From Duganella sp. Root1480D1 (lineage in GTDB: Bacteria; Pseudomonadota; Gammaproteobacteria; Burkholderiales; Burkholderiaceae_D), in the NCBI RefSeq assembly GCF_001427305.1, contig NZ_LMFZ01000012.1, positions 62,001 to 126,000 of the forward strand: 64,000 nt of DNA. Direction: 5' to 3'. This document shows positions 49,902 to 57,222 of this stretch, in pieces (the stretch's first letter is position 1; each line of letters begins with the position of its first letter). The position numbers and the translations under genes are program-made. The notes below the pieces were generated by a model that did not search any database, was not told the DNA's origin, and saw only the letters and a program-made list of their open reading frames with translations.

Positions 49902-49915
49902 TTGATTTCAATCAA
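49902..49915. promoter_or_regulatory. FNR-type binding site upstream of the histidine kinase
   Basis: TTGATTTCAATCAA is a perfect match to the FNR/CRP-family consensus TTGATNNNNATCAA. Its centre (about 49908.5) is about 42 bases before a possible start point near 49951, with a TTGAAT -10-like sequence at 49939-49944, the class II activation layout. The kinase ATG follows at 49969. Confidence 0.7.
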
Positions 49916-49968
49916 AGTGGCGTTTTTGCAACTTGACCTTGAATAGAGGAAATTCTTATAGTCGCGCA

Positions 49969-51753
49969 ATGACCCGCTTACAACTCAGCCTGTTTGCCCC
50001 CGCCAAACCCTTGTGGTGGCTGGGAATTGCGCTGTCGTTGGGTGTTGGTCTCGGCCTGTACGTGGTTGCCACCCGCTCCGTCGAAAGTGAAGCGCAAGCC
50101 CGCTTCCAGAACCAGGCCCGCAATACGCAATTCAATATCAACGCCAGCATCAAGGCCTACACCGACGTCTTGCGCGCCGCTGCCAGCTACTTCCAGGCTG
50201 GCGGCGAGGTCAACCGCGAAACCTTTCACCGCTATGTGCAGGGACTGGACCTCGAACACAATTACCCCGCCATCGACAATATCAATTTCGCCGAGTACTA
50301 CACCGACGCCCAGCGCCCGGCAGCGGAAGCCCGCCAGCGCCAGCTTACCGACAATCTTTACCCTGCCTACCGCATCCATCCCGAAGGAAAGCGCCGCGAA
50401 TATGCGGTACTGACCCTGATCGAGCCCCTCGAAGGCTTCGCCGACCGATATGGCCTGGACATCGCAGCCCGCCCTGGCGTGGCGGACGCCCTGTTCTCGG
50501 CCCGCGACCAGGGCGCCATGAGCAGCTCCGGCCAGCCTATCCCGCTGCGCAGCGCACCAAGCCATGTCGGCATGGCAGTGCGCATCCCGATCTATCGCAA
50601 CGGCATGCCGATAACCTCGGTCGCGGAACGGCGCCAGGCCTGCGTTGGTTCAGTAGGGCTGGGCTTCAGCGTGCCGCGACTGGTCGAAGCGGCATTGGGC
50701 GAAATGCCGGTGCGCACCGTGCGCGTATCCCTGCGCGACAGCAGCAGCATCGGCCGGCCGCCTGCCCTGCTGTTCGACAGCCAGCCCAATACGCCTGCTG
50801 CGGACAGCGACCATTTCATCACCGAGTTGCCGGTGCAGTTCCATGGCCGCACCTGGCATGCCCAGTTCAGCGTGCCGAAGCGCGCACTGTATTCAAACTT
50901 CGACCAGTTCCTGCCCACGCTGGCGGGCAGCATGGGCTTCGGCGCCAGCGTGCTGATATATGCGCTGTTCGTCACGCTGGCCTCGTCGCGCCGTCGCGCC
51001 GTCAAGATGGCGCGCGCCATGACGCGCGAACTGCGCGACAGCCAGGCGCGCCTGCAACTGTCGCACCACCGCTTACGCCGTCTCGCCGCGCACGCGGACC
51101 ACATCAAGGAGGAAGAGCGCAAGCGCATTGCGCGCGAGATCCACGATGACCTGGGCCAGAACCTGCTGGCCCTGCGCATTGAAGCCGACATCCTGTCCAC
51201 GCGCACGGAAAAAACCCATCCGCGATTGCATGCGCGGGCGCGGGCCACGCTGCACCAGATCGACAACACCATCCGCAGCGTGCGACAGATCATCAATGAC
51301 TTGCGGCCAAATGTGCTGGACCTTGGCCTGTCCGCGGCCGTGGAATGGCAGATCGCACAATTCCGCCTGCGCTCCGGCATCAAATGCGAGTTCATTGAAG
51401 ATGCCGTGGCCGACCATGGCGTCGATGACCATTGCGCGACCGCCTTCTTCCGCGTACTGCAGGAATCGCTCAGCAATATCCACCAGCACGCGGCGGCCAC
51501 CGTGGTGCGGGTCGAGCTGCACCAGTCGCATGGCATGCTGCGCATGACCATTACCGACAACGGTATCGGCATCAATACCGCCAGCCGCCACAAGGCCGGT
51601 TCTTTCGGCCTGGTCGGTATCGAGGAGCGCATCAGCCTGCTTGGCGGGAACTGCTCGATCAACAGCCTTCCGCATGGCGGCACCACAGTCAGCATTGCGG
51701 TGCCGGTTGGTTATCGCGTGGCCCCCACCGACGATATGCGCCTCAGCGCTTAG
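49969..51753 (+). CDS. Orphan sensor histidine kinase with CHASE-type periplasmic domain (NarX/HisKA_3 class)
   Basis: From the ATG at 49969 (a start 36 bases upstream is possible) the product has 594 residues. An N-terminal membrane helix (about 16-36) is followed by a CHASE domain (residues about 50-290: YTDVLRAAASYFQAGGEVNRETFHRYVQGLDLEHNYPAIDNINFAEYY), a second helix near 315-335, then a HisKA_3 box IAREIHDDLGQNLLALRIEAD with His392. The HATPase is present (FRVLQESLSNIHQHAAATVVRVEL, ITDNGIGI, GLVGIEERISLLGG). This is the NarX/UhpB class that pairs with NarL-type regulators. No response regulator is adjacent. CHASE domains sense small extracellular ligands such as cytokinin-like or peptide signals. 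Confidence 0.9.
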   Translation: MTRLQLSLFAPAKPLWWLGIALSLGVGLGLYVVATRSVESEAQARFQNQARNTQFNINASIKAYTDVLRAAASYFQAGGEVNRETFHRYVQGLDLEHNYPAIDNINFAEYYTDAQRPAAEARQRQLTDNLYPAYRIHPEGKRREYAVLTLIEPLEGFADRYGLDIAARPGVADALFSARDQGAMSSSGQPIPLRSAPSHVGMAVRIPIYRNGMPITSVAERRQACVGSVGLGFSVPRLVEAALGEMPVRTVRVSLRDSSSIGRPPALLFDSQPNTPAADSDHFITELPVQFHGRTWHAQFSVPKRALYSNFDQFLPTLAGSMGFGASVLIYALFVTLASSRRRAVKMARAMTRELRDSQARLQLSHHRLRRLAAHADHIKEEERKRIAREIHDDLGQNLLALRIEADILSTRTEKTHPRLHARARATLHQIDNTIRSVRQIINDLRPNVLDLGLSAAVEWQIAQFRLRSGIKCEFIEDAVADHGVDDHCATAFFRVLQESLSNIHQHAAATVVRVELHQSHGMLRMTITDNGIGINTASRHKAGSFGLVGIEERISLLGGNCSINSLPHGGTTVSIAVPVGYRVAPTDDMRLSA

Positions 51754-51790: not shown

Positions 51791-51804
51791 TTGATCCAGA
51801 TCAA
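51791..51804. promoter_or_regulatory. FNR-type binding site (distal) upstream of the AYSGRV-repeat gene
   Basis: TTGATCCAGATCAA, a perfect TTGATNNNNATCAA palindrome, about 160 bases upstream of the predicted start point near 51955 and about 290 bases before the ATG. Confidence 0.7.
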
Positions 51805-51956: not shown

Positions 51957-51970
51957 TTGATCTACATCAA
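51957..51970. promoter_or_regulatory. FNR-type binding site (proximal) upstream of the AYSGRV-repeat gene
   Basis: TTGATCTACATCAA, a second perfect palindrome. It begins 9 bases after the TATACT -10 element, so protein bound here would block that promoter, or activate a further promoter about 42 bases downstream. Confidence 0.7.
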
Positions 51971-52090: not shown

Positions 52091-53209
52091 ATGATTTCTG
52101 CCGAAAGCTTCAAGGCTATTGCCGACCTGGACCTGGAACCAATCAAGGTGAAACTGATGCACGTGGAATCTGGCGAAGGCTGGTCGCTGGAAAAGGTTAA
52201 CGCAATCGAATTCGAGTACCGCCGTTTCCTCTATCTGATGAAAATGTTCCCTAACGAGCAGACCGCTCCGTTGATGGACGTGGACATTTTCTGGCATTAC
52301 CACATCCTCGATACGATGAAGTACTTCATCGACTGCGAAAATGTGTTCGGCTACTACCTGCACCACTTCCCATACATCGGCCTGCGTGGCGAAGATGACG
52401 AAGAGGCGCACGAGCGCGTGGGTAATCGCATGAAGGAGCTGTATGAAGAAACCTTCGGCGAGGGGTATTTCCGCAGCGCGGTGGCTTATTCGGGCCGCGT
52501 GGCGGCGGAAGCTGCCGCAGACGGCGCCCAGGTCGCCTATTCGGGCCGCGTAGCGGACGAAGCTGGCCAGCAGGTCGCGTATTCCGGTCGCGTTGCCGCC
52601 GAAGCCGGTGCGCAAGTCGCGTACTCGGGCCGTGTCGCCGCCGAAGCCGGCGCGCAAGTCGCGTACTCGGGCCGTGTCGCCGCCGAAGCAGCCCCACAAG
52701 TAGCTTACTCCGGCCGCGTCGCTGCCGAAGCTGCGCCGCAAGTCGCCTACTCCGGTCGTGTCGCCGCCGAAGCCGCACCGAAGGTCGCATATTCTGGCCG
52801 CGTTGCAGCGGAGGCCGCACCGCAAGTGGCGTACTCCGGCCGTGTCGCTGCCGAAGCTGCGCCGCAAGTCGCCTACTCCGGTCGCGTCGCGCTTGCCTAC
52901 TCCGGTCGCGTGGCCGCGGACGCCGCACCACAAGTGGCTTACTCCGGCCGCGTAGCTGGCGAAGCGGCACCGCAAGTCGCCTACTCCGGCCGCGTGGCAG
53001 CCGAAGCAAAGACTGCCTACTCGGGCCGTGTGGCGGCAGGAGCGAAAACGGCATACTCCGGCCGTGTCGCCGCTGAAGCGCAAACTGCCTACTCCGGCCG
53101 CGTGGCCGCCGAGGCCAAAACCGCCTACTCCGGCCGCGTCAGCGCCGAAGCCCAGGCAGCATCGCAATCGCTGTTCTATACCGCCCGTCCACGCCTGGCA
53201 GCCGCCTGA
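52091..53209 (+). CDS. GRDP-like protein with 17 tandem AYSGRV repeats
   Basis: The ATG at 52091, with AAAGGGA at a good distance, gives 372 residues. Residues 1-128 match the pattern of the bacterial GRDP-like domain (DUF1399/PF07173): MDVDIFWHYHILDTMKYFIDC then FGYYLHHFPYIGLRG, with Trp68, His69, His71, His91 and His92. Residues 131-352 are 17 copies of VAYSGRVAAEAxxQ: mostly a 14-residue (42-base) period, changing to 12 residues (AYSGRVAAEAKT) in the last five. One unit (copy 10) is truncated. There is no signal peptide, membrane helix or recognisable enzyme. The tail is QSLFYTARPRLAAA. The core AYSGRV is invariant while linkers and codons vary, which implies selection on the peptide. Its function is unknown. 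Confidence 0.88.
   Translation: MISAESFKAIADLDLEPIKVKLMHVESGEGWSLEKVNAIEFEYRRFLYLMKMFPNEQTAPLMDVDIFWHYHILDTMKYFIDCENVFGYYLHHFPYIGLRGEDDEEAHERVGNRMKELYEETFGEGYFRSAVAYSGRVAAEAAADGAQVAYSGRVADEAGQQVAYSGRVAAEAGAQVAYSGRVAAEAGAQVAYSGRVAAEAAPQVAYSGRVAAEAAPQVAYSGRVAAEAAPKVAYSGRVAAEAAPQVAYSGRVAAEAAPQVAYSGRVALAYSGRVAADAAPQVAYSGRVAGEAAPQVAYSGRVAAEAKTAYSGRVAAGAKTAYSGRVAAEAQTAYSGRVAAEAKTAYSGRVSAEAQAASQSLFYTARPRLAAA
52481..53156 (+). repeat. In-frame tandem repeat array encoding AYSGRV units
   Basis: Seventeen copies of about 42 bases, falling to 36 bases in the final five. Copies 4 and 5 are identical over more than one unit, and the GCTGCCGAAGCTGCGCCGCA segment recurs at 52721 and 52847, a distance of 126 bases (three units), so slippage and higher-order duplication have happened. 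Synonymous codons vary between other copies. Confidence 0.9.
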
Positions 53210-53230
53210 GCCAGATCGAGCGCGCAAATA

Positions 53231-53269
53231 AAAACGGCCGCCACCTGCTAGCAGGTGCGGCCGTTTTTT
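53231..53269. terminator. Bidirectional terminator shared by two convergent genes
   Basis: AAAACGGCCGC and GCGGCCGTTTT-type arms around a CACCTGCTAGCAGGTG inner palindrome form a long hairpin with A's on the left and TTTTTT on the right. It lies 22 bases after the repeat gene and 15 bases from the stop of the convergent DNA-binding-protein gene, and can end transcripts from both sides. Confidence 0.88.
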
Positions 53270-54009: not shown

Positions 54010-54894
54010 TCACGGGCGCTTGATGCATCTCAAGGCGGCTGCGACATCCGGGTACAGCAGCCGAACCTGCAACTCTTGCTTCAGGCGCCGGTTCGCCAGC
54101 CTGCGCGACTCCGACATGAAGGACAACAGAGTTGGCGCCACCGCCTGCGCCAGTGCTGCACGGTCCAGGCGGGGTGGGCGCGGCAAGCCGAAATGATCGG
54201 CCACCATGTCGAAATAGTCCCCCATTTTCAGCTCCGTGTCATCCACTGCGTGATACACACGGTTACAAAATCCCTTGCGCAAGGCCGCCAAAACAACGCG
54301 CGCCAGGTCGTCCGCATGGATATGGTTGGTGTAAACATCATCTTCCGGCCGCAGCGCCGGGGTGCCCTGCTGCAGTCGCTTGAGCGGCAAGCGGTCTTCC
54401 GCGTAGATGCCTGGCACGCGCAGGATAGTCAGCCGCCCTTGCGCACGACGCGCCCAGGCCCGCAACACCTGCTCCGCATCGACCCGCCGCAGCGCCCGTG
54501 CATTGCGTGGCGCAACGGGCTGGGTTTCGTCGGCCCAGCGCCCGCCCAGGTCGCCATACACGCCAGTGGTGCTCACATAAACCACTTGCGCCCGGTCAGG
54601 TAAAATGGCGGTCACATTGCGGGTGCGCCGGTCCTGGGCTCCCTCGCCCGGCGGTGGGGCCAGGTGCACGATCTGTTGCGCCAGCCCGGCCAGGCGACGC
54701 AGCGACTCGGGCTGGTCCAGGTTGGCCAGCAACGGCACGGCGCCCGCCGCACGCAATTCGGCAAAGCGCTCGCGCTGGCTGGTCACGGCAAATACGCGGT
54801 AATGCGCGCGCACCAAAGGCAGCAAACGCATGCCCACATCGCCGCAACCAATGACCAGCAGGCGCGGCTTGTTGAATTTTTTACTGATTTCCAT
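54010..54894 (-). CDS. NAD-dependent epimerase/SDR-like protein
   Basis: The frame is open much further upstream, but the ATG at 54894 opens the Rossmann fold directly (MEISKKFNKPRLLVIGCGDVGMRLLPLVRAHYRV), giving 294 residues and an end 12 bases from a divergent start. GCGDVG is the dinucleotide loop, VVYVSTTGVYGDLGG resembles the SDR catalytic Ser/Tyr region, and FRVYHAVDDTELKMGDYFDMVADHFGLPRP is typical of atypical SDRs (YeeZ-like). Substrate is unknown. Confidence 0.82.
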   Translation of the reverse strand: MEISKKFNKPRLLVIGCGDVGMRLLPLVRAHYRVFAVTSQRERFAELRAAGAVPLLANLDQPESLRRLAGLAQQIVHLAPPPGEGAQDRRTRNVTAILPDRAQVVYVSTTGVYGDLGGRWADETQPVAPRNARALRRVDAEQVLRAWARRAQGRLTILRVPGIYAEDRLPLKRLQQGTPALRPEDDVYTNHIHADDLARVVLAALRKGFCNRVYHAVDDTELKMGDYFDMVADHFGLPRPPRLDRAALAQAVAPTLLSFMSESRRLANRRLKQELQVRLLYPDVAAALRCIKRP

Positions 54895-54906
54895 TTTTAA
54901 GATTGT

Positions 54907-55932
54907 ATGTCTTTCCAAATTACTGTTCAGCCTAGCGGCCATCAATTCCTCTGCGAAGACGACGAAACCGTATTGGCCGCAGCCATGCGCGCCGGTGTCG
55001 GCCTGCCATACGGCTGCAAGAACGGCGCCTGCAGCTCCTGCAAGGGCAAGGTGGTATCGGGCTCGGTCAGCCACAAGGCCCACCAGCGCCGCGCGCTGAG
55101 CGAGGAAGAGGAAGCAGCCGGCATGTCCCTGTTCTGCTGCGCGATTCCGCACTCCGACCTGGTGCTGCAAGCGCGCGAAGTGGTGGGCAGCGGCGAATTC
55201 CCGATCAAGAAAATGCCGACCCGCGTCAACTCGCTGGAGAAAATGGCACCCGACGTGATGGTACTCACGCTGCAACTGCCGGCCAACGAAACTTTCCAGT
55301 ACAAGGCCGGCCAGTACATTGAATTCCTGCTGCGCGACGGCAAGCGCCGCGCTTATTCGATTGCCACCGCACCGGAAGGCGGCGCGATCACCCTGCACAT
55401 CCGCCACATGCCGGGCGGCCTGTTCACCGACCAGGTGTTCAGCACCATGAAGGAGCGCGACATCCTGCGCTTCGAAGGCCCGCTGGGCACCTTCTTCGTG
55501 CGCGACGATTCCGACAAGCCGATGGTACTGCTGGCATCGGGCACCGGCTTCGCGCCGATCAAGGCGATTGTCGAACATGAACGCGCCAGCGGCTCGAAGC
55601 GCCCGATGACGCTGTACTGGGGCGGCCGCCGCCCGCAAGACCTGTACATGGACGCGCTGTGCCGCCAGTGGGCGGACGAACTGCCGAACTTCAAATACGT
55701 GCCGGTGGTTTCCGACGCCCTGCCAGAAGAAAACTGGAACGGCCGCACCGGCTTTGTCCACCAGGCCGTCATCGACGACCTGCCGGACATGTCGGGCTAC
55801 CAGGTCTACGCCTGCGGCGCCCCGATTGTGGTTGAATCGGCCAAGCGCGATTTCGTCAGGAATTGCAAGCTGCCGGAAGACGAATTCTACGCAGACGCCT
55901 TCACCTCCGAAGCAGATCTCCAGCAACCTTAA
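54907..55932 (+). CDS. 2Fe-2S/FAD/NAD oxidoreductase, CDP-6-deoxy-3,4-glucoseen reductase-like
   Basis: The 341-residue protein has an N-terminal [2Fe-2S] ferredoxin domain (YGCKNGACSSCKGKVVSG with Cys at about 37, 42, 45 and the fourth near 77, FCC), an FAD domain (RAYSIATAP) and an NAD domain (LLASGTGFAPIKAIVEHE, YACGAPIVVE). This is the AscD/CDP-deoxyhexose reductase layout; in betaproteobacteria such proteins also serve other electron-transfer roles. No deoxysugar genes are nearby, so the specific name is uncertain. It is divergent from the epimerase-like gene. Confidence 0.85.
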   Translation: MSFQITVQPSGHQFLCEDDETVLAAAMRAGVGLPYGCKNGACSSCKGKVVSGSVSHKAHQRRALSEEEEAAGMSLFCCAIPHSDLVLQAREVVGSGEFPIKKMPTRVNSLEKMAPDVMVLTLQLPANETFQYKAGQYIEFLLRDGKRRAYSIATAPEGGAITLHIRHMPGGLFTDQVFSTMKERDILRFEGPLGTFFVRDDSDKPMVLLASGTGFAPIKAIVEHERASGSKRPMTLYWGGRRPQDLYMDALCRQWADELPNFKYVPVVSDALPEENWNGRTGFVHQAVIDDLPDMSGYQVYACGAPIVVESAKRDFVRNCKLPEDEFYADAFTSEADLQQP

Positions 55933-55998
55933 GGCTTTCCCCGCGCTGCGTGCCGTGGGGCGCGCAGCGCTCCACGGCTCTCCCAAGCACGCAAACGT

Positions 55999-57222
55999 AT
56001 GTCATCCAACGGTTTCTCTGTCCTCCGCCACCGCAATTTCGCCTTCTACCTGTCAGCCCGCCTGCTCGGCACCATCGCCGTGCAAATGCAGAACGTCGCC
56101 ATCGGCTGGCAAGTCTATGCGCAGACCAAAAACCTGTACTACCTGGGCATGATCGGCCTGGCGCAATTTGCGCCATTCCTGCTGCTGATCCTGTACGCCG
56201 GCCACGCCGCCGACCGCTACAACCGCCGCAACATCATCGCTACCTGCCTCGGCGCGCAACTGGTGTGCGGGCTGGCGCTGCTTGGCTACACCCACAGCGG
56301 CTTCAGCGCCGTATGGCCGATCTTCGCGGTGCTGGTGCTGTATGGTAGCGCTCGCGCCTTCATGAGTCCCGCTACCCAAGCGGTGCTGGTGAACATGGTT
56401 CCCACCGAAGATTTCAGCCGCGCGGTGGCGCTCTCCAGCTCCACCTTCCAGGTCGCCGTGATCCTCGGCCCAACCCTGGGGGGCCTGCTGTATATCTACG
56501 GCCCGGCCGCCGTGTACACCGTGACTTCGCTCATGCTGCTGGCCGCCGTGGTGCTGATGACGCTCACCCGCCCTGCCCCGCAAGCCACGCGCAAGGAGCC
56601 GGCCACCTGGCATAGCGTGCTGGAAGGACTGCGCTTCGTCTGGTCGCGCCCGATCATGCTGGGCGCGATTTCGCTCGACCTGTTTGCCGTGCTGTTTGGC
56701 GGCGTAACCGCCCTGCTGCCTGCCCTGGCGCATGATGTGCTGCACGTCGGGCCGACAGGTCTTGGCCTGCTGCGCACCGCGCCTGGCGCCGGCGCTGCCC
56801 TGTGCTCGATCGCACTCGCGTTCTGGCCGATCACGCGCCGGGTTGGCGCCTGGATGTTCGGCGGCGTCGCCGTGTATGGCATTTGCACCGTGATCCTGGG
56901 TACCACGTCCAGCTTCAGCCTCGCCCTCGCCTGCCTGCTGCTGCTTGGCACCGGCGACATGATCAGCGTGTACGTGCGTCACCTGCTGGTGCAGTTCGAA
57001 ACGCCCGATGAAATCCGCGGCCGCGTCAGCGCGGTGAACGCGGTCTTTATCGGCGCCTCCAACGAACTTGGCGAATTCGAGTCCGGCGTCACCGCCGGCT
57101 GGCTAGGGCTGACGCGCGCCGTGATCTTCGGCGGTGTCGCCACGCTGGCGGTAACGGGCATCTGGGCCTGGCGCTTCCCTATCCTGTCGCGCATGGACCG
57201 TTTCCCCCATCACGACAAGTAG
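55999..57222 (+). CDS. MFS exporter of the MFS_3/EntS type
   Basis: A 407-residue protein with about 12 helices: MSSNGFSVLRHRNFAFYLSARLLGTIAVQMQNVAIGWQVY is the typical opening of this subfamily. Motif A is AGHAADRYNRRNIIA. Proteins of this branch (EntS-like) export siderophores or small molecules. It starts 66 bases after the reductase and is followed by a DUF1345 gene 13 bases later. Confidence 0.85.
   Translation: MSSNGFSVLRHRNFAFYLSARLLGTIAVQMQNVAIGWQVYAQTKNLYYLGMIGLAQFAPFLLLILYAGHAADRYNRRNIIATCLGAQLVCGLALLGYTHSGFSAVWPIFAVLVLYGSARAFMSPATQAVLVNMVPTEDFSRAVALSSSTFQVAVILGPTLGGLLYIYGPAAVYTVTSLMLLAAVVLMTLTRPAPQATRKEPATWHSVLEGLRFVWSRPIMLGAISLDLFAVLFGGVTALLPALAHDVLHVGPTGLGLLRTAPGAGAALCSIALAFWPITRRVGAWMFGGVAVYGICTVILGTTSSFSLALACLLLLGTGDMISVYVRHLLVQFETPDEIRGRVSAVNAVFIGASNELGEFESGVTAGWLGLTRAVIFGGVATLAVTGIWAWRFPILSRMDRFPHHDK

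Follow-up and report, generated by a model that had tools for sequence, protein, structure and literature searches.

An AYSGRV-repeat protein with a GRDP-like domain, encoded beside a CHASE sensor kinase in Duganella, as a candidate fused multi-core peptide precursor

The window, by which we mean the whole stretch of 64,000 nucleotides that was analysed, contains a sensor kinase gene followed on the same strand by a gene for a repeat protein, hereafter the array gene. The features of this locus are the following:

49902..49915, plus strand: perfect FNR-type box TTGATTTCAATCAA, just upstream of the sensor kinase gene
49933..51753, plus strand: sensor histidine kinase gene (CHASE - HisKA_3 - HATPase), whose stop lies 337 nt before the ATG of the array gene
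51791..51804, plus strand: perfect FNR-type box TTGATCCAGATCAA, between the kinase gene and the array gene
51957..51970, plus strand: perfect FNR-type box TTGATCTACATCAA, between the same two genes
52091..53209, plus strand: array gene, 372 amino acids plus stop, with GRDP-like domain, AYSGRV array and C-terminal motif
52091..52474, plus strand: N-terminal GRDP-like domain (residues 1-128), from conservation and AlphaFold2 (all-helical)
52484..53140, plus strand: 17 AYSGRV units from residue 132, with Ala/Glu/Pro/Gln/Lys linkers and no confident structure
53174..53197, plus strand: C-terminal FYTARPRL (residues 362-369), related to the RP motif of most relatives
53230..53269, no strand assigned: terminator-like inverted repeat with a T-run after the stop codon, seen by eye

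The sequence-only reading of this DNA had reported 17 in-frame AYSGRV units in this open reading frame, and the count of exact units gives the same number. The ATG is the start used in the homologues and an AAAGGGA lies upstream of it (by eye). The period of 14 and then 12 residues given in that reading is right overall but is interrupted by two odd spacings, the successive distances being 17, eight times 14, 8, twice 14 and four times 12 residues. The 17 cores are written in 15 distinct 18-mers, and the pairwise comparison of their codons yields 435 synonymous and 0 nonsynonymous differences, where 70% of random single-base changes would be nonsynonymous; the AYSGRV core is therefore selected at protein level, and the earlier statement that it is kept as protein while its codons differ is borne out. 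In the four linker codons that follow the core, 254 differences between units are synonymous and 122 are nonsynonymous. The tail holds 81 Ala and 23 Gly among 241 residues, the whole protein has one Cys (C82), no signal peptide was seen by eye, and the C-terminal RP-type motif is matched in 86 of the 102 genes read among the relatives. The terminator scan at the array gene returned one shorter match on the minus strand, with a total not above that of shuffled sequences, the sigma-70 promoter scan did no better than shuffles, and no Rfam or tRNA match was found in the window.

Several candidate features over the array were rejected. The Pfam matches inside it were taken as composition artefacts: "FERM adjacent" exceeds its cut-off, yet no single stretch of it passes, and the other five are all below their own cut-offs. 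An open reading frame of 380 amino acids on the minus strand was taken as a codon-bias shadow. The idea of an MIO/GFP-like backbone cyclisation of Y-S-G was likewise set aside.

Close relatives of the array gene are found in Pseudoduganella, Duganella, Massilia and Janthinobacterium. The search covered 148 genomes, the window's own included, and gave a match in 78; within the genus, 72 of 74 genomes matched, the misses being a genome of 60% completeness and G068. From 76 loci, 50 with one copy and 26 with two tandem copies, 102 genes were read and 101 were taken for the array counts. The array locus is vertically kept. The sequence-only reading had held that a unit number varying freely with broken frames would speak against it: the number does vary, from 2 to 19 across the array genes (10 to 19 exact AYSGRV units in the window and six close relatives), but the frame is intact in 101 of the 102 genes, the other being a second copy with an internal stop.

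The constant element of the arrays in the 101 Oxalobacteraceae genes is A-[Y/F/W/H]-[Ser/Cys]-[Gly/Ala], and not the Arg. The dipeptide [FYWH][SC] occurs 1037 times in the 101 tails against 157 in shuffled tails, with Ala before it in 993 cases and Gly or Ala after it in 994, and it contains 109 of the 110 Cys residues of the tails. In 95 of the 101 arrays a single dipeptide makes up at least 90%, while the genes differ: YS dominates in 55, HS in 16, WS in 11, FS in 8, FC in 7 and YC in 4. The arrays are thus nearly uniform within a gene and differ between genes; Ser and Cys are exchanged as a block, the aromatic residue is likewise exchanged as a block, and Arg is dispensable. The proposal that an Arg cleaved by a protease is the point of the repeat finds no support, since many related arrays (AYSGVP, AYSGA, AHSGV, AFCGSPE) have none. 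Among the 25 tandem pairs with two readable arrays, 19 differ in dipeptide, and 17 of these have WS or FS upstream and YS downstream. AWCSAPSKPRE and AFCSSPGTPRKA arrays are found in two genomes of another genus of Oxalobacteraceae. A further GRDP relative in the window's genus (L058:8188-9138) carries an array of 13 x AACMN, and its flanks give no CHASE match.

The N-terminal domain has the WHYH and HH expected of the GRDP-like pattern, and it exceeds the Pfam cut-off of the GRDP-like family (PF07173) marginally, with 23.5 bits vs 22.7 over an alignment limited to residues 43-81 and profile positions 101-143 of 143, which upholds the earlier assignment. W68, H69, H71, D74, T75, Y78, H92 and P94 are invariant in both alignments of the close branch, and D81, C82 and H91 are kept at 90% or more in both. 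A remote branch aligns to the close one with an hhalign probability of 98.2% over 76 columns; it keeps neither H71, the second His of WHxH, nor D74, and its proteins at L118, L177 and L178 are below the Pfam cut-off. Judged from the residues, the conserved WH, Cys and HH form a possible metal site. Modelled alone with AlphaFold2, the domain is all-helical with a mean pLDDT of 88.3 and a pTM of 0.84; the full-length model is poor (mean pLDDT 38, 20-35 in the array blocks, and a weaker N-terminal domain than when modelled alone) and serves only for the statement that the array has no confident fold. The domain profile gave no match among PDB sequences up to E 10, and none of 21 Foldseek matches reached E 0.001; PADLOC gave no match, and PHROGs one weak match of unknown function, for the E. 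coli protein described below. Because the domain has no PDB relative in sequence or in fold, a catalytic role would rest on the conserved residues and the context. Plant members of PF07173 have a glycine-rich C-terminal region, and the tail of the array gene, with its composition given above, is not of this type.

The Pfam scan of the window neighbours, from which a minus-strand epimerase-like open reading frame at 54010-55986 was left out, recognised the CHASE kinase, a GlnRS-type synthetase, DnaJ, a 2Fe-2S/FAD reductase, an MFS_3 transporter, DUF1345 and S30AE; two neighbours had no match. As had been stated before, no modifying enzyme adjoins the array gene among these scanned neighbours, and no protease or dedicated exporter was recognised among them. 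The sole candidate exporter there is the MFS_3 gene at 55999-57219, nearly 3 kb from the array gene, and this family is kept at 18 of the 22 loci compared, like the other neighbours. When the window is compared with 18 named loci of twelve kilobases, all 19 have the CHASE kinase clustered with the GlnRS-type gene, and 18 keep the gene that comes next downstream, which has a weak HigA-type match.

The pairing of the array with a CHASE gene, the FNR boxes and the split forms described below go beyond the sequence-only reading. By a profile of the sensor part, 36 of the 36 readable array loci with wide flanks have a CHASE gene as their immediate upstream neighbour in the same orientation, that is 33/33 in Oxalobacteraceae and 3/3 in Variovorax and two Cupriavidus, a count that applies to wide-flank loci only, the other Oxalobacteraceae loci having short flanks. 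The output part of the partner is a histidine kinase in Oxalobacteraceae and GGDEF-EAL in Variovorax and Cupriavidus pinatubonensis, so that the physical pairing is kept across two output architectures. On the replicons of Variovorax (1.24 Mb) and C. pinatubonensis (0.69 Mb), the neighbour of the array is the only CHASE gene; the window's genome has eight. The profile gave no match at 29 wide GRDP loci without such an array, nor at four further ones (L189, L190, L191 and L214). L192, where the contig ends after a single AWS and the upstream gene is TctC and not CHASE, was counted as unreadable and may be an exception to the pairing. With mean differences of 0.54 and 0.28, the sensor part of the CHASE proteins is about twice as variable as the kinase part, and a partial Mantel test relates sensor divergence to array type (r 0.22, p 0.0065), a weak association of a kind prone to false positives from phylogeny. 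To our knowledge, bacterial CHASE sensors have few known ligands, and we know of no peptide ligand for a CHASE-domain sensor. The neighbouring kinase of the window has its CHASE domain in common with plant AHK4 and with PcrK, a bacterial sensor which perceives a cytokinin (PMC7072313).

The FNR consensus is TTGAT-N4-ATCAA. The 6.6-Mb genome contains 17 perfect boxes and 0 matches to the reversed control pattern, and three of the 17 lie within about 2.1 kb at this locus; the box upstream of the kinase gene is kept in 6 of the 18 named loci (L032-L036 and L049). With a relaxed pattern (outer bases T/C and complements), a raw count finds a box no more than 350 nt from a copy in 51 of the 76 loci; it is perfect in 46 of these, often with other inner bases, and at the remaining 25 loci every copy lacks a box over that distance. 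A CRP/FNR-family protein with clustered Cys at its N-terminus is encoded in the genome, and the two marks of an FNR regulon, an upstream box and an FNR-type protein, are thus both present. Judging by these boxes, transcription of the array gene is probably raised by FNR at low oxygen.

Outside the array loci, the survey sampled part of the Pseudomonadota together with plasmid, phage and viral records. The domain profile matched 28 of 398 sampled Pseudomonadota genomes at E 1e-8, and the domain was found in 22 plasmid records and one phage record (tblastn) and in 8 viral contigs. In the close branch it occurs in a split form, with peptides of 42-45 amino acids ending in HCQGxGxW followed by a GRDP gene and a related transporter gene, in Pseudomonas savastanoi, Halomonas and a Burkholderiales genome; the transporters are homologous, with a Pfam MatE match in Halomonas only, below its cut-off, and the Burkholderiales transporter is in pieces in different frames. 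Also in the close branch, Stanieria has a 43-residue peptide with two FCFL. In the remote branch, three Cys peptides with NISGG leaders share a gammaproteobacterial cluster (L118:6774-12059, minus strand) with a pair of GRDP-like proteins, with HlyD and with a C39-peptidase ABC exporter, and a U32 peptidase is encoded upstream of the peptide genes; Aureibacter has a separate 33-residue peptide, GHCSNCGHCSASF; and small E. coli plasmids encode, after a GRDP-like protein with a fused, Cys-rich CGCSGKGCGAGCSC tail, an ABC exporter as well as a JmjC enzyme. Transporters or exporters are thus present at L118, L075, L079, L177 and, broken, at L189. The HCQGxGxW and NISGG cluster types have no other recognised enzyme between peptide and exporter, several of their flanking genes lying outside the Pfam scan, and among the scanned proteins, with flanks scanned in part, no MNIO (DUF692) enzyme was found in or beside a precursor.

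The eight separate peptides (33-45 residues) have 13 of their 20 Cys after F, Y, W or H, residues with a background of 9%; three of the eight are paralogues and three are homologues, so that a binomial p overstates their independence, and their choice by eye among short open reading frames next to GRDP genes, partly with a Cys filter, is a possible bias. Fused Cys tails are AWCSLEAGKP in Variovorax, AYCAREA in Cupriavidus and CWHDCENRCWHAC in Raineya and Sediminibacterium, and other fused GRDP tails end in CR or CP. A TauD gene adjoins GRDP in Raineya, Sediminibacterium, Azospirillum and two further genomes. Many GRDP proteins have Gly/Cys-rich tails with no peptide cluster noticed.

The E. 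coli plasmids (L177, NZ_AP022301.1, and L176) are mobilizable, 7.9 kb long and of pHUSEC41-3 type, and their cluster (L177:3950-7175) is microcin-like. At least 80% of the pHUSEC41-3-type plasmid is present in 29 of 5,426 genomes, and the literature that names pHUSEC41-3, in its available parts, gives no description of such a GRDP/exporter/JmjC cluster.

The model we propose, tentatively and as one that may well be right while falling just short of probable, is that the array gene encodes a fused multi-core RiPP-like precursor in which the GRDP-like domain processes or presents the repeated motif, and which is made at low oxygen and gives a product linked to the CHASE sensor. FNR would raise transcription when oxygen is low. 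The GRDP-like domain would act as, or would recruit, the machinery that modifies the aromatic-Ser/Cys motif, and it would present 17 copies of the A-Y-S-G substrate in cis on an unstructured tail; in the relatives it would work in a split form with separate short Cys peptides. The tail would either yield peptides on cleavage or serve as a polymer, and the resulting product would be tied to the neighbouring CHASE sensor, most simply as its ligand. From synteny alone, the MFS_3 transporter could export it.

The model is supported by the enrichment of the motif, the uniformity of the arrays, the split forms and the fused Cys tails of other lineages, and also by the strict CHASE pairing and the three perfect FNR boxes gathered here. 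As in RiPP systems, the precursor is gene-encoded with a core under protein-level selection, and the split relatives encode short peptides. Of the three ideas of the sequence-only reading (multi-copy peptides, a polymeric scaffold, repeated docking sites), the production of multi-copy peptides comes out best, because relatives of the domain adjoin separate short Cys peptides, some with exporters. The model is weakened by the lack of a recognised protease or modifying enzyme beside the window gene, such as a RiPP cluster would contain along with a dedicated exporter, and by the Ser of most Oxalobacteraceae arrays, to which a Cys chemistry would not apply. It is further weakened by the loss of H71 and D74 in the remote branch, to which the NISGG, Aureibacter and E. 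coli clusters belong, by the TauD or JmjC enzymes that could do the chemistry in other clusters, by the many Gly/Cys-rich GRDP tails without a noticed peptide cluster, and by the broken Burkholderiales transporter, L192 without CHASE and the loci without a box.

Two rivals of this model are the strongest: a domain that serves as a carrier and is not an enzyme, and a multivalent polymer that stays uncut. In the former, which we consider unlikely yet worth serious attention, the GRDP-like protein would be a leader, carrier or immunity protein and the chemistry would be done by other enzymes, such as TauD, JmjC, methyltransferases or the products of genes elsewhere in the genome. The TauD genes that adjoin GRDP in five genomes and the JmjC gene of the E. 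coli plasmids fit this, whereas the HCQGxGxW and NISGG clusters, with no other recognised enzyme between peptide and exporter among the genes scanned, speak against it, and the fused tails argue against a pure immunity role. The polymer, which strikes us as rather unlikely, would be a disordered scaffold left uncut as a condensate, a matrix or a docking platform, with the GRDP-like domain as its anchor, the repeats as sticker motifs of aromatic and small residues, and the Ala/Pro linkers as spacers. The array indeed has such a composition, has no confident fold in AlphaFold2 and varies in the number of exact units among close relatives, and neither a protease nor a dedicated exporter was recognised next to the window gene. 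However, the exchange of Ser and Cys as a block over whole arrays, with Cys nearly confined to the motif, the split short peptides beside the domain, some with exporters, and the strict pairing with a CHASE sensor all stand against a scaffold.

A protein of metal, redox or oxygen response, controlled by FNR and with a metal or cofactor bound to its domain and tail, the repeats being ligand or storage sites and the CHASE sensor merely sharing the stimulus, would account for the His/Cys/Asp set of the close branch, the FNR boxes and the Cys-rich tails of many relatives. Tyr-Ser, Phe-Ser and Trp-Ser are poor metal ligands, though, and arrays of these, together with the exporter and leader peptides of the NISGG split cluster, make this explanation improbable in our view.

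The multi-core, enzyme-fused peptide precursor is already known as an architecture. Microviridin-type systems use separate ATP-grasp ligases, whereas no such ligase is among the scanned window neighbours of the array gene. Their precursors carry several cores on one chain (PMC5934393). In the plant burpitides (PMC11253845), the BURP domain of copper-dependent peptide cyclases is defined by CHX10CHX25-27CHX25-26CH, the fused forms join the catalytic domain to several aromatic-containing cores in cis (SkrBURP has four VLFYPSY), and split forms exist. The GRDP-like proteins described here resemble them in their fused and split forms and their multiple cores in cis, but the array-gene protein is bacterial, has a single Cys and a GRDP-like domain, and gives no BURP match in Pfam. 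Borosins are self-modifying precursors with the enzyme fused to the core (types I-III) and a bacterial split form (type IV) (PMC8429565); in contrast, the array-gene protein has no SAM-dependent N-methyltransferase domain by Pfam. The pattern of fused and split forms seen here matches that of burpitides and borosins, with a different domain. The plant GRDP/DUF1399 protein AtGRDP2, studied for growth and stress (PMC4299439), has its Pfam family in common with the array-gene protein, marginally, and differs in that the latter has an Ala-rich array and not a Gly-rich end; the literature covered gives plant GRDP proteins no role in peptides.

The literature on PF07173/DUF1399 contains, by title, nothing on bacterial peptides, and GRDP together with RiPP leads, in the parts available, to fungal genome work only. 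There was no match for AYSGRV; those for "AYSGR" are unrelated by title, among the matches listed; and JmjC with RiPP leads to biphenomycins only in the accessible parts of the sources. Titles and the beginnings of abstracts, with few subscription journals among them, mention no GRDP-like domain in a precursor role and neither the motif nor the CHASE pairing. The earlier claim that no system of this kind has been described thus stands for the GRDP-like domain in this literature, but not for self-modifying precursors, fused or split, in general.

The clusters around the GRDP-like domain hint at an undescribed family of bacterial peptides. A broader reading, which we regard as doubtful, takes the GRDP-like domains for a new metal-dependent class of peptide processing, acting on aromatic-Cys/Ser motifs in cis or in trans in several bacterial phyla, on plasmids and in large phages, and takes the self-processing arrays of Burkholderiales for a source of low-oxygen pheromones for CHASE sensors. 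The peptides would then be gene-specific, and uniformity within a gene with block change between species would constitute a signal code. If the proposed model is right, a domain mostly annotated as "hypothetical protein" would mark a family of peptides that may escape current mining, clusters on small E. coli plasmids among them; bacterial CHASE sensors would gain a ligand that is genetically encoded and can be tested; and the array protein would offer a natural scaffold of many peptide copies that processes itself.

Some further loci were noted in passing. At L074:6956-14348, L119:217-7183 and L191:742-7966, a GRDP protein with a short Cys tail lies beside a TauD-type oxygenase and a large ABC-ATPase, the latter with a UvrA DNA-binding match at L074 and L119 and none at L191; methyltransferases are present at L074 and L119, and a pentapeptide-repeat protein at L119, and self-protection of a DNA-related kind may accompany the product of these clusters. 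GRDP-like proteins with His/Ser/Gly/Cys-rich tails are encoded on viral contigs of 80-533 kb (L080-L085 and L087). Short GRDP-like proteins ending in GQCSSCET or similar (L172:5661-7199, L173:5725-7239 and L174:125-1766) have as neighbour a protein of 349-353 amino acids ending in SSCSSCSSCSSCSS. Finally, at L200:1532-2096, a gene named by eye as of universal-stress type has one more of the 17 perfect FNR boxes in front of it and lies about 2 kb from a CRP/FNR-family regulator.
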